Positions 6,215 to 61,632 of a DNA stretch of 63,328 nt are shown here, one piece after another; the first letter of the stretch is position 1, and each line of letters begins with the position of its first letter. This stretch comes from Verrucomicrobiota bacterium (GTDB lineage Bacteria; Verrucomicrobiota; Verrucomicrobiia; Limisphaerales; VHCN01). The notes beneath the pieces were generated by a model. The model searched no databases, was not told the origin of the DNA, and worked only from the letters and a program-made list of their open reading frames with translations. A program made the position numbers and the translations under genes. Location: NCBI GenBank assembly GCA_016871675.1, contig VHCN01000015.1, positions 1 to 63,328 of the forward strand, read 5' to 3'.

Positions 6215-7264
6215 ATGAAAGACACGGCACCGGTCCCGGTCACAGTGCTCACAGGCTTCCTCGGCGCGGGGAAGACGACGCTGCTCAATCACATTCTCAC
6301 CCAGCCGCACGGTCGCAAGTGCGCGGTCATCATCAATGAGTTCGGAGCCGTTTCGATCGACCACCAGCTCGTGGTGAACGCAGACGAGGAGATCGTGGAG
6401 TTGAACAACGGCTGCCTGTGCTGCCGCATGCGCGGCGATTTGGTGAAGAGCATCGCCGGACTTTTCCAAAGGCAAAAGCGGTTCGATTACATCCTCGTCG
6501 AGACGACCGGGCTGGCGGACCCAAGTCCGATCGCGCATACGTTTTTCCTTCCCGAGCTCGCGGGCAAGCTGCGGCTCGACGCGATCGTGACGGTGGCGGA
6601 CGCGAAGCATCTCGAAAAGGAACTCGCCGACGCGCCGGAGGCGTCGGCGCAGATTGCGTTTGCCGACGTGGTGCTGCTGAACAAGACGGATCTGGTATCC
6701 GCCACGGACCTGGATCGCGTCGAGTCGCGCATCCGCCGGATGAACCGGCTTGCCCGGTTGCACCGCACGCGGGACTCGCGCGTGGAACTCGAAAAGATCC
6801 TCGGCATCCAGGCGCGCGAACTGGCGGCGCCGATCGAAGTCGAGGAGGCGGAACACCGGCACGATCACCACGGGCACACGTCGGAATGCGCCCCAGACTG
6901 CGATCACGACCACGGCCCTGGCGGACATCACCACGAGCCCGGTGGGCATGAACACGCGCACGACGATAAGGTGACGTCATTCCTCATCGCCGAGGAACGC
7001 GCATTGGACTTGAAGCGGACGGAAAAGTGGCTCTCGGAACTGCTCGTGGGCAAGGGCGGCGACCTTTACCGCTCGAAAGGCATCCTGCACATCAAGGGAC
7101 AGCCCAAGCGCGTCGTCTTCCAGGGCGTGCAGATGATGTTCGATGCGAAGCCGGAGCGATTCTGGAATCCCGACGAGAAGCGAAAGAGCCAGGTCGTGTT
7201 CATCGGGAAGGAACTCGACGAGGCGGCGATCCGGGCGGGATTCGCCGGCTGTCTGGCGGAGTGA
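6215..7264 (+). CDS. COG0523 G3E-family GTPase, His-rich metallochaperone
   Basis: 349 residues. Walker A is GFLGAGKTTLLNH near residue 12, and the COG0523 metal motif CLCC is at 67-70 (NGCLCCRMRGDLV). Other GTPase signatures are ETTGLADPSPI, VVTVADAKH-like and LLNKTDLV. A histidine-rich insert at roughly 207-250 (HRHDHHGH, CDHDHG, HHHEPGGHEHAHDD) is typical of zinc-handling members. The C-terminal CobW_C domain ends with FIGKELDEAAIRAGFAGCL. The family delivers Zn, Co or Ni to client enzymes using GTP. Zinc is the best guess here from the His loop and from the zinc-ribbon gene 29 bases downstream. No Zur-like operator was recognised by eye, so zinc control is only a hypothesis. Confidence 0.88.
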   Translation: MKDTAPVPVTVLTGFLGAGKTTLLNHILTQPHGRKCAVIINEFGAVSIDHQLVVNADEEIVELNNGCLCCRMRGDLVKSIAGLFQRQKRFDYILVETTGLADPSPIAHTFFLPELAGKLRLDAIVTVADAKHLEKELADAPEASAQIAFADVVLLNKTDLVSATDLDRVESRIRRMNRLARLHRTRDSRVELEKILGIQARELAAPIEVEEAEHRHDHHGHTSECAPDCDHDHGPGGHHHEPGGHEHAHDDKVTSFLIAEERALDLKRTEKWLSELLVGKGGDLYRSKGILHIKGQPKRVVFQGVQMMFDAKPERFWNPDEKRKSQVVFIGKELDEAAIRAGFAGCLAE

Positions 7265-13677: not shown

Positions 13678-13704
13678 ACAGCCGCCGGCGATGCCGGCGG
13701 CTGT
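13678..13704 (+). terminator. Strong hairpin terminator after pilC
   Basis: A perfect 12-bp stem (ACAGCCGCCGGC / GCCGGCGGCTGT) with a GAT loop, followed by TTTCGTT. It separates the ATPase block from the toxin-antitoxin and prepilin genes. A second small hairpin, ATCGGGT-GAAG-ACCCGAT, lies at 13720-13737. Confidence 0.65.
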
Positions 13705-43631: not shown

Positions 43632-45197
43632 ATGCACCCGCTGATCCACGAAGCCGCCACGTCACACACGCCCGAGTCGCTCGTTGCGCGACTCGCGGGC
43701 GAGCCGGGTGTCGTGCTGCTTCGCAGTCACGGGTCTGACCCGGGACAATCGCGTTACTCGTTCGTCACCGCGCGGCCGATGCTGACGTTCCGCTCGTTCG
43801 CGTCGCGCTGCGAGATCACCACCTCGCGGACGCCTGACGCGAGACCGCAAACCCAGTTCGGCAACCCGTGGCGCGTGCTCGACTCGCTGATGTCGCGTTA
43901 CGAGTTGCTCGACGCCCCCGACTTGCCCTTCCCGCTCGGAGGGTGCTTCGGCTATTGGGGCTACGATCTCAAGAACTTCGTCGAGCCCAAGCTGTCGCGC
44001 CGCGCCGTGGACGACCTCGAATTGCCCGACAGTCACGTGGGGTTTCACGACAGCCTCGTCGTGTTCGATCATCGACTCGGAAAGACCTGGATCATCGCGA
44101 CCGGCCTCGGCGTGGACGGCTCGCGCTCGGAGGAACGGACGAAGCGGCAGTTTGAATTCTGGGAGGAGATACTGGGGCATGAAGACCTTTCCAACTCCCC
44201 CTCACCCGCGCTTCCGGCACGCCCACCCCTCACCCCATCCCTCTCCCCCCGTCCGGCGAGGGGAGAGGGTGCCCGAAGGGCGGGTGAGGGGTGCGCGGAT
44301 GACGGGTTCACGGCCACGGATGGCGCGGTCCGTGTCCGTTCCAACCTCACCCGCGCCGCGTTCCTCGCCCGCGTCGAGCGCGCGCAGCATTACATCCGGC
44401 ACGGCCACATTTATCAGGTGAACCTGTCGCAGCGGCTCTCGACGCCGAGCGTCCTCGGTGGATGGGAGTTGTTTGAGCGGCTCTGTGACGTTTCGCCCGC
44501 GCCGTTCGCGTCGTTTCTGGACTGCGGAGATTTCCAAATCGCGTCGTCGTCGCCTGAGTTGTTCCTGCGGCTGAGCGGCGCGCTCATCGCCACGCGGCCG
44601 ATCAAGGGCACGCGCCCGCGCTCGACCGACGCGACTCGCGATGCGCAGCTTACCTACGAGTTGCAAACGAGCGCGAAGGAAATGGCCGAACTGGTGATGA
44701 TCACCGACCTGTTGCGGAACGACCTCGGGCGCGTGTGCGAGTTTGGCAGCGTGCAGGTGCCGGAACTGGTTCGACTGGAGCGGTTCGCGCAGGTGCAGCA
44801 TCTCGTGAGCACGGTCGAGGGGCGGCTGCGCGCGGGTGTGACGCACTTCGCCGCGCTGGCGTCGTGCTTTCCCGGCGGCAGCATCACGGGCGCGCCGAAA
44901 TTCCGAGCGATGGAAATCATCGATGAGCTGGAGCCCGTCGCGCGCGGGCCTTACACGGGATGCCACGGCTACCTCGGCTTCAACCGCGAGAGTCAGCTCA
45001 GCATCACCATCCGCACGGCGGTGCGCACGACGGACGCCACGCATTTCAACGTCGGCGCCGGCATCGTGGCGGACTCGGTGCCGGAGACGGAATACGAGGA
45101 GACGCTTGCGAAGGCTCGCGGCTTCCTCGCCGCGCTCGCGCTGGATGTGCCGCTCAATCCTGCGCCGGCGTTGCGCCGGACTCAATCTCCCGCCTGA
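43632..45197 (+). CDS. pabB: Aminodeoxychorismate synthase component I
   Basis: 521 residues. The N-terminal lobe (PLGGCFGYWGYDLKNFVEPK) and the chorismate-binding domain from about residue 235 (FLARVERAQHYIRHGHIYQVNLSQRL with breaks; SSSPELFLRL; LLRNDLGRVCEFGSV; SCFPGGSITGAPKFRAMEII) are complete. Lys325 in RPIKGTRPR is the lysine that marks PabB; TrpE has Ala there. It makes 4-amino-4-deoxychorismate for folate. The linker between lobes contains an inserted palindromic repeat of about 24 codons, read in frame. The partner amidotransferase is not in the window. The 3' end overlaps an SRPBCC remnant on the other strand by 44 bases. Confidence 0.9.
   Translation: MHPLIHEAATSHTPESLVARLAGEPGVVLLRSHGSDPGQSRYSFVTARPMLTFRSFASRCEITTSRTPDARPQTQFGNPWRVLDSLMSRYELLDAPDLPFPLGGCFGYWGYDLKNFVEPKLSRRAVDDLELPDSHVGFHDSLVVFDHRLGKTWIIATGLGVDGSRSEERTKRQFEFWEEILGHEDLSNSPSPALPARPPLTPSLSPRPARGEGARRAGEGCADDGFTATDGAVRVRSNLTRAAFLARVERAQHYIRHGHIYQVNLSQRLSTPSVLGGWELFERLCDVSPAPFASFLDCGDFQIASSSPELFLRLSGALIATRPIKGTRPRSTDATRDAQLTYELQTSAKEMAELVMITDLLRNDLGRVCEFGSVQVPELVRLERFAQVQHLVSTVEGRLRAGVTHFAALASCFPGGSITGAPKFRAMEIIDELEPVARGPYTGCHGYLGFNRESQLSITIRTAVRTTDATHFNVGAGIVADSVPETEYEETLAKARGFLAALALDVPLNPAPALRRTQSPA
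44224..44293. repeat. Palindromic repeat inserted inside pabB
   Basis: Outer arms CACCCCTCACCC (44224-44235) and GGGTGAGGGGTG (44282-44293), and inner arms CCCTCTCCCC (44239-44248) and GGGGAGAGGG (44260-44269), are exact inverted repeats. Translated in frame it gives PLTPSLSPRPARGEGARR and AGEG. This type of 'SPLPRRGEG' palindrome is common in intergenic DNA of many high-GC bacteria; inside a gene it is unusual. Confidence 0.75.
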
Positions 45198-60490: not shown

Positions 60491-61632
60491 AGAACGTCGT
60501 TTTGCTCGGCAGCACCGGCTCCATCGGCACCAGCACGGTCAAGGTGGCCATGGACCTGCCGGACCGCATCCGCCTGCTCGGGTTCGCGGCGGGCAACAAT
60601 GCCGAACTGCTCCTCGAACAGACGAGGCAGCACAAACCGGAGGCCATTAGCATCACCGACCCGGCAAAGGCGGCAGAGTTGCAGGCGCTGCTCGGCACGA
60701 CGACCCGCGTATGCAGCGGTGACGCGGGCCTGATCGAACTCGCGACCCTGCCCGGCGCGGACATCGTGCTCATTGCCATCGTGGGCACCGCGGGATTGAA
60801 ACCCGCGCTCGCGGCCATCCGTGCCGGGAAGGACATCGCCGTCGCGTCGAAGGAGATCCTCGTGATGGCCGGCGAAATCGTGATGAGCGAGGCGCGCAAG
60901 CACGATGTCCGTGTGCTCGCCGTGGACAGCGAGCACTCGGCGATCTTCCAGTGCCTCGACGGCAAGCCGCCCGAGTCCGTGCGCAATCTCTGGCTCACCG
61001 CCAGCGGCGGGCCGTTCCGCGACAAGGCGCTCTGGCCGAAGGAGAAGTTTGCCGGGATCACCGTCGAACGCGCGTTGCAGCATCCCTCGTGGGTCATGGG
61101 CCGCAAGATCACGATTGATTCCGCGACGCTGTTCAACAAGGGCCTCGAGATGATCGAGGCGCGATGGCTGTTTGACATCGGCATGGACCGCGTGCGCATG
61201 GTCGTGCATCCGCAGAGCGTGATCCACTCGATGGTGGAGTTCGTGGACGGCTCGATGCTCGCGCAACTGTCCACGCCCGACATGTGCCTGCCCATCCAGT
61301 ATGCGCTCACGTATCCCGAGCGCGCGCCGAGCGGACGCGTGCAGACAAGCCTCGCGGGTTACGGCAGTCTGACCTTCGAGGAACCCGACTTGGAGCGCTT
61401 CCCCTCGCTGAATCTCGCGCGTCGCGCCGGCGAAACCGGCGGCACGCTGCCCGCGGTGATGAATGCTGCGAACGAGGTTGCGGTTGATGCCTTCTGCAAT
61501 CGCAAGCTCACCTTCGTAGGCATCACCGAAACGGTTGCGCGGGTAATGGACCGCCACCGTCCGGTGGAGCACCCGACACTCGCGCAGATTCTCGCCGCCG
61601 ATGCGTGGGCGCGCGCCGAGGCCGCGGCGTGA
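60487..61632 (+). CDS. dxr: 1-deoxy-D-xylulose 5-phosphate reductoisomerase
   Basis: 381 residues, ATG overlapping the cdsA stop. The NADPH site is LLGSTGSIGTSTV, followed by ASKEILVMAGE, the metal site VDSEHSAIFQCL, ASGGPFRD, HPSWVMGRKITIDSATLFNKGLE (two segments), and VVHPQSVIHSMVEF. It catalyses the first committed step of the MEP isoprenoid pathway. ispG of the same pathway starts at 63160, so this run supplies both early and late MEP enzymes near uppS, which uses the product. Confidence 0.96.
   Translation: MKNVVLLGSTGSIGTSTVKVAMDLPDRIRLLGFAAGNNAELLLEQTRQHKPEAISITDPAKAAELQALLGTTTRVCSGDAGLIELATLPGADIVLIAIVGTAGLKPALAAIRAGKDIAVASKEILVMAGEIVMSEARKHDVRVLAVDSEHSAIFQCLDGKPPESVRNLWLTASGGPFRDKALWPKEKFAGITVERALQHPSWVMGRKITIDSATLFNKGLEMIEARWLFDIGMDRVRMVVHPQSVIHSMVEFVDGSMLAQLSTPDMCLPIQYALTYPERAPSGRVQTSLAGYGSLTFEEPDLERFPSLNLARRAGETGGTLPAVMNAANEVAVDAFCNRKLTFVGITETVARVMDRHRPVEHPTLAQILAADAWARAEAAA

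Follow-up and report, generated by a model that had tools for sequence, protein, structure and literature searches.

An in-frame palindromic repeat in the inter-lobe linker of a PabB-type gene and its relatives in other genes of a Verrucomicrobiota genome

The PabB-type gene of the window (the whole stretch of 63,328 nucleotides that was analysed) contains a palindrome that is translated within the linker between the two lobes of the protein and is very likely one copy of a mobile, non-autonomous repeat of palindromic type, fixed in this linker because the site is permissive. Copies of the same repeat reside in many other genes of the genome, and unrelated palindromic families occupy the same PabB linker elsewhere in the order. 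The features concerned are as follows.

43632-45197, plus strand: PabB-type gene (aminodeoxychorismate synthase component I-like), 521 aa plus stop codon (open reading frame 43632-45194 plus stop)
43662-44090, plus strand: N-lobe, Anth_synt_I_N, Pfam PF04715, aa 11-153
44198-44209, plus strand: additional arm CCCCTCACCCGC, pairing with 44280-44291
44224-44293, no strand assigned: palindromic element, 70-bp core, encoding about aa 198-221; the genome has at least 37 such places
44224-44235, plus strand: left terminal arm CACCCCTCACCC, perfect 12-mer with the right arm
44239-44248, plus strand: inner arm CCCTCTCCCC, perfect 10-mer
44260-44269, plus strand: inner arm GGGGAGAGGG, perfect 10-mer
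44272-44281, plus strand: side hairpin CCCGAAGGGC; the 79-bp copies have a version 9 bp longer instead
44282-44293, plus strand: right terminal arm GGGTGAGGGGTG, perfect 12-mer with the left arm
44352-45113, plus strand: C-lobe, Chorismate_bind, Pfam PF00425, aa 241-494

The initial annotation had described the palindrome at 44224-44293 as nested and exact, and the outer and inner arms are indeed perfect over 12 of 12 and 10 of 10 bases, respectively. Translated in frame it reads PPLTPSLSPRPARGEGARRAGEGC, and it lies, as had likewise been stated, in the linker between two intact lobes, with Anth_synt_I_N ending at aa 153 and Chorismate_bind starting at aa 241. The accompanying statement that its length keeps the frame was mistaken: at 70 bp (3n+1), the palindrome by itself would shift the frame. 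Since the linker of the window gene comprises 59 aa, which is 33 codons above the commonest length among 48 PabB genes (26 aa), the net insertion must include bases beside the palindrome. The arm CCCCTCACCCGC at 44198-44209 may indicate how far the inserted DNA extends on its 5' side. The predicted RNA fold of 44200-44310 has an energy of -68.9 kcal/mol (z = -4.29) that was equalled by 0 of 200 dinucleotide shuffles, and this value together with the 37 genome places rules out a chance palindrome. A known RNA family was likewise rejected, the only Rfam match being mir-4433 at an E value of 0.25 and 22 bits compared with a gathering score of 77. Elsewhere in the window, other perfect inverted arms of 12-13 bp are present at 60758-60911, 13678-13704 and 6575-6724, the last falling in a predicted gene; these arms may be due to chance.

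The window protein scores 321.2 bits against NCBIfam TIGR00553 (pabB), slightly below the cut-off of 328.4 which two orthologues pass (L010, 342.4; L013, 337.6), and it contains the PIKGT motif, which we take to be diagnostic of PabB. Across 90 of 90 PabB sequences, that of the window included, 66 columns are invariant. Compared with five genes of family f27, the window gene is 83-85% identical at the second and 54-61% at the third codon position, a pattern which, as far as sequence comparison can tell, would be that of a functional gene. An AlphaFold model based on 90 PabB sequences (used in place of one from 15 sequences with a pLDDT of 54.8) reached a pLDDT of 89.0 and a pTM of 0.88; in this model residues 183-235 have no secondary structure, and residues 198-229 are the sole segment with a pLDDT below 50. 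According to the model, aa 198-229 or thereabouts probably lengthen the inter-lobe linker by a disordered stretch, although the low pLDDT of an insert shared by few of the aligned sequences may be due to missing alignment in addition to disorder.

As had been anticipated from the sequence, the genome (G000; 3.61 Mb, 149 contigs, 96.87% complete) contains further copies. BLAST with the palindrome region gave 50 matches, both strands counted, which resolve to the 37 places (27 fetched stretches), two of them being arm fragments of only 19-20 nt; this number is a lower bound, resting on one search (a first look scored 40 of 42 candidates) and on BLAST of the fetched stretches. Twenty-eight copies are delimited by arms: 14 measure 70 bp, 4 measure 79 bp by virtue of nine extra side-hairpin bases, and the remainder 49-75 bp, some being delimited loosely. 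Both 12-bp terminal arms are perfect in 12 of the 18 copies of 70 or 79 bp. The consensus, CACCCCTCACCCCATCCCTCTCCCCTCGTCCGACGAGGGGAGAGGGTGCCCGAAGGGCGGGTGAGGGGTG, ends in CACCCC/GGGGTG, contains CGTC in its central loop only and is stop-free in four of six frames. The flanks of 24 copies show no general conservation; outer arms TGAACC/GGTTCA occur in a subset (an uncontrolled count). In the same order, the pattern CCCTCWCCC-N(4-26)-GGGGWGAGGG was found in 36 of 58 genomes, the own genome included, with up to 171 forward matches per genome, compared with 0 matches of a reversed control pattern in 55 of the 58. In some relatives the CCCTC hairpin occurs in inverted, REPIN-like pairs with a spacing of about 100 bp. 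Searches with the encoded peptides and with CCCTCACCC yielded only unrelated publications among the matches listed, and neither the element nor repeat insertions in PabB were described in the open-licence literature among the matches listed. We regard the repeat as a new family.

Thirteen of the 37 places lie in genes, whereas 16 are intergenic, three overlap a gene end by 3-20 nt and five are located at doubtful gene starts; the earlier characterization as a repeat usually found between genes was therefore too strong. In-gene calls relied on our own codon-usage model, for which the fetched sequence served as training set, and on inspection of both sides; the five copies at doubtful starts (L123 with two places, L132, L137, L139) were left out of the count because of that position. 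Besides PabB of the window, the hosts are a DUF7133 protein (L119), a PSCyt2/PSD1 protein (L122), Ham1 (L125, 4406-4475), Methyltransf_28 (L128), UvrD (L130), UvrB (L131, 2001-2066), an ABC protein (L133), an aldehyde dehydrogenase (L135), a Meth_synt_2 protein (L136), a GFO/IDH/MocA oxidoreductase (L140), a HEAT/cytochrome protein (L144) and an FG-GAP/DUF7133 protein (L145). In 12 of the 13, Pfam domains flank the insert, or one domain is matched in two pieces or across it; in L119 a domain was found at one side only. Pfam support is weakest for L144, with a right-hand match at E 2.7e-4, and for L136, whose second matched piece has no position assigned. Both orientations occur among the in-gene copies. 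Those of 70 or 79 bp, seven in all, are read only in the two stop-free phases, and the third phase is used by two 69-bp in-gene copies only.

Empty sites were sought in alignments of four hosts with 24 relatives each. In the aldehyde dehydrogenase, a 33-aa insertion is missing from 23 of the 23 aligned relatives that have residues at the site, some of which carry up to four extra residues there; about nine of these rows are close orthologues (at least 62% identity) and many are distant (about 40%). The Ham1 insert is present in 0 of 24 relatives, in a region of variable length where two rows are poorly aligned. The Methyltransf_28 insert is missing from 23 of 24, and the remaining relative, L260, has an insert of its own (FSLSPSEGERG...). 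The UvrB loop is short in 18 of 24 relatives, five others are longer, and L190 (G025) carries PLTPSLSPSDGERVAESRARG at this position. In a UvrB tree computed without the loop, in which most branches are weak, the seven long-loop rows require five changes and form one clade in 0 of 200 bootstrap trees. Two families of the order (L131 and L190) have one and the same repeat family at this UvrB loop.

For PabB itself, the expectation of an insertion relative to related proteins was borne out. A tree from which the linker was excluded places the window gene as sister to L020 (99/90), whose linker lacks the segment and comprises 26 aa compared with 59, which makes a gain in the window lineage the best reading. 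The inserted residues are also missing from the other aligned PabB linkers, except for a related repeat in L010, which belongs to the same repeat family and is placed elsewhere on a tree with mostly weak branches. The family that holds L020, f27, contributes five PabB linkers of 26, 39, 31, 26 and 26 aa, and the median linker length in the set of 48 genes is 29 aa. Among the matches listed there was no genome of the same genus or family, and the empty site in pabB is hence visible across families only. The short linkers of L020, L338, L339, L027 and L038 seemingly consist of heptad-like tandem units (for example TCAGTGT or CATCACG), a further type of repeat at this site, and that of L338 matches one locus, L142, of the genome to which the window belongs.

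The wider comparison comprised 92 PabB rows, namely 48 from a 58-genome set (window included), 38 from across the order and six named Verrucomicrobia loci. They represent 91 different genes, as L041 is identical to L301 over the first 600 bases of the C-lobe; neither of these two has arms of 12 bp. Perfect inverted arms of at least 12 bp are present in 11 of the 92 linkers, the window included, compared with 3 of 552 windows of the same length from the same genes. By set, they occur in 3 of the 48 (less biased), in 8 of the 38 order-wide genes, whose selection at E <= 1e-150 biases towards long, alignable linkers, and in none of the six named loci. All three control matches are palindromes of a second PabB loop, located before QFGNPW, in L324 and L293. 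Ten perfect arms of at least 14 bp were detected in the 92 genes, eight at residues 184-235 (the linker) and two at residues 66-74 in window numbering; only one of seven arms of 12-13 bp lies outside these two regions. At residues 66-74, in-frame palindromes are found in L324, L293 and L329, of which L324 (25-bp arms) and L329 (12-bp arms) apparently share one family.

The linker inserts are of differing sequence. One family, CCCTCACCCC, unites the window, L010, L285, L287, L288, L294, L301 and L303; the other inserts are GGTCGGGACGCG... (L013), CCCCCGGCTTCAGCCGGGGG (L016), GAGACTGTCTCAAAA... (L324), TGGGGCGAGGCTCC (L284), CAACGTGCTGCCGTGC (L290) and ATGTAGGGCAG (L323). The CCCTC family is firmly confirmed as a repeat outside pabB. 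Firm evidence was also obtained for the L013 element, with four further places in G017 (partial matches of 26-49 nt), and for the L324 element, which recurs clearly at three more sites of G233 (E values near 1e-18 or below), with weaker matches in both G233 and G176. The L016 element gave one weak match (27 nt, E 6e-5), located about 90 bp from a Y1 transposase gene of another genome. When linkers were compared by BLAST with other loci, 16 of 92 found a match as opposed to 4 of 276 controls; this count excludes L045-L118, because in a first run 119 of 276 controls had matched owing to other PabB/TrpE-type loci (L045-L118) in the database. The PabB linker is a recurrent landing site for unrelated palindromic repeat families of the order.

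Taking these data together, we propose that an element whose core measures 70 or 79 bp, with terminal inverted repeats of 12 bp and a hairpin inside, spreads by means of some enzyme, and that it would have entered pabB once the lineage of the window had diverged from the closest sister sampled. Because four of the six frames of the core are stop-free and the number of bases gained is a multiple of three, pabB would have stayed open, and because the new peptide is distant from conserved motifs, it would have been spared by purifying selection. Insertions that break genes would be lost, while those that keep the frame, enter in a stop-free phase and fall in tolerant linkers would persist; the PabB linker would be such a permissive site, where unrelated palindromic families became fixed in different lineages. 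After insertion, DNA pairing would decay and the peptide would drift as an ordinary linker. Mobility by some enzyme, neutrality of the inserts and decay of the old ones are what we infer, and the window insertion and the other linker inserts are most likely selfish and tolerated. Pieces of mobile DNA seem in this way to have become harmless, flexible protein sequence, and the linkers form a natural series that can be counted, ranging from recent palindromes to linkers that look decayed, in which to study how mobile DNA becomes protein sequence.

Beyond mere tolerance, the PabB linker DNA might be preferred by the insertion machinery, for instance as a single-stranded or hairpin-bearing target. 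The convergence of unrelated palindromic families on one linker, the second recurrent loop at residues 66-74 and the family-type insert in the UvrB loop of two lineages (the own one and L190) would all be compatible with such targeting. We nevertheless consider it unlikely, since families with different ends at one site fit tolerance better than a single target sequence, the flanks of the 24 own-genome copies reveal no strong common target, and none of the relatives compared (23 and 24, respectively) reuses the aldehyde dehydrogenase or the Ham1 site. Different families in one linker within one order favour repeated independent landing in a permissive site. It is tempting to go further and to speculate that the linker and the loop before QFGNPW are true hot spots where a hairpin or flexible extension is useful and the segment is repeatedly rebuilt from mobile DNA, a scenario to which we accord little probability.

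That the insert has been selected in pabB, be it as an mRNA hairpin or as a new peptide causing an inter-lobe translational pause, altered mRNA stability or altered regulation, is improbable. The hairpin is strong and located between two lobes, and REP hairpins have been hypothesized to stabilize mRNAs in other bacteria (available text of PMC3733652). However, most sampled relatives manage with short linkers, 81 of 92 linkers are devoid of perfect 12-bp arms, the families differ between linkers with several of them appearing decayed, and inserts are found in unrelated genes as well.

Vertical inheritance of an old linker sequence, instead of insertion, is very improbable for the window gene, because L020 and four more PabB genes of its family (L020 alone being in the tree) lack the segment and the same core recurs at other places in the genome. 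It draws on observations from families f42 and f62, in which, judged by their sequences, several linkers look like one REPIN-like insert at different states of decay and the L293 linker looks like an internal deletion of it; as this segment is apparently common to several members, some linker inserts would be old. Misjoining of a repeat into pabB during assembly, conceivable for a metagenome-type genome of 149 contigs with several copies close to contig ends, is hardly credible for a copy that lies mid-contig in a gene that is open and in frame on either side, that has mutations of its own and that has similar counterparts in the same linker in independent assemblies.

The first palindromes reported from within genes were those of Rickettsia. 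The resemblance to these elements (RPEs), proposed in the initial annotation, stands insofar as the insert is in frame and works alike. With 13 of 37 places in genes and with empty sites in relatives, the repeat belongs to the RPE-like functional class of protein-coding palindromic elements. As in RPEs and Wolbachia palindromic elements (WPEs), both covered in the available parts of PMC2229807, PMC10969869 and PMC3767692, palindromic repeats are found in frame in protein genes of varied function, and for RPEs terminal inverted repeats of 12 bp are listed, along with reading frames that stay open across the element (PMC2229807, available part). RPEs are elements of the Rickettsiales with a cited length of 100-150 bp, whereas the core described here measures 70 or 79 bp, is very rich in G+C and belongs to the Verrucomicrobiota. 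Different RPE groups occupy the same loci in some orthologues, for which the accessible text of PMC3767692 leaves open whether a hot spot or a diverged ancestor is responsible, leaning towards common origin; inserts of several unrelated families in one linker set the present case apart, as compared with descriptions of RPEs alone.

Closer in phylogenetic terms are the GTAG/CGTC REPs, many of which are intragenic in Opitutus terrae (Verrucomicrobia) (Di Nocera et al. 2013, PMC3733652, available text). The same source describes intragenic REPs in excision-repair genes (uvrA, uvrB and UvrD/Rep helicase) and approximate site reuse in recB of two Xanthomonas species. Short palindromes, often dimers, that lie wholly inside ORFs are common to both systems, as are the phylum and, here, the hosts uvrB and uvrD. 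By contrast, our consensus core (the consensus being judged, rather than single copies) ends in neither GTAG nor CGTC, and the genome yielded no RAYT match. Given the published intragenic repeats, including those of Opitutus terrae, the in-gene habit as such is already known, also in this phylum. The inverted CCCTC hairpin pairs of relatives recall REPINs/BIMEs. MITEs and the enterobacterial RU/ERIC elements also occur intragenically (Delihas 2007, PMC2759123, and PMC2229807, in their available parts; for Coxiella MITEs, PMC5896051, likewise in part). The element shares with them short length, non-autonomy, terminal inverted repeats as in several of them, contiguous open frames and in-frame fusions, and it differs in having no target-site duplication.

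A direct repeat of at least 4 nt within 6 nt of the ends was present in 1 of 24 copies, compared with 5.0 expected. Although the terminal inverted repeats of a MITE are present, a MITE that duplicates its target was rejected on this count. The idea that lengths of 70 and 79 bp are tuned to a 2-bp duplication was also discarded, as there is no duplication and copies of 66, 68, 69 and 75 bp are found in genes, too. With regard to the mobilizing enzyme, Pfam PF01797 (Y1/RAYT) had 0 matches in the own genome and matches in 5 of 14 control genomes; Y1 matches were obtained in 49 of the 58 genomes searched, a set that includes the own genome. Unlike RAYT-linked REPINs/BIMEs, the repeat is not enriched near 30 fetched Y1 loci of relatives (5 motif matches compared with 3.4 expected), and together with the absence of a Y1 match from the own genome these chance numbers led us to reject a RAYT-mobilized REP. 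The terminal repeats of TIRYT transposases share the motif GGGGWSAS (PMC3733652, available text), which fits the inner arm GGGGAGAG; this single 8-mer match is a lead only, and it contrasts with the lack of a Y1 transposase match in the own genome. Of the 30 Y1 loci (L146-L175), 21 are flanked on both sides by other exact inverted repeats, 13-36 bp in length (an uncontrolled count), in a REPtron-like arrangement.
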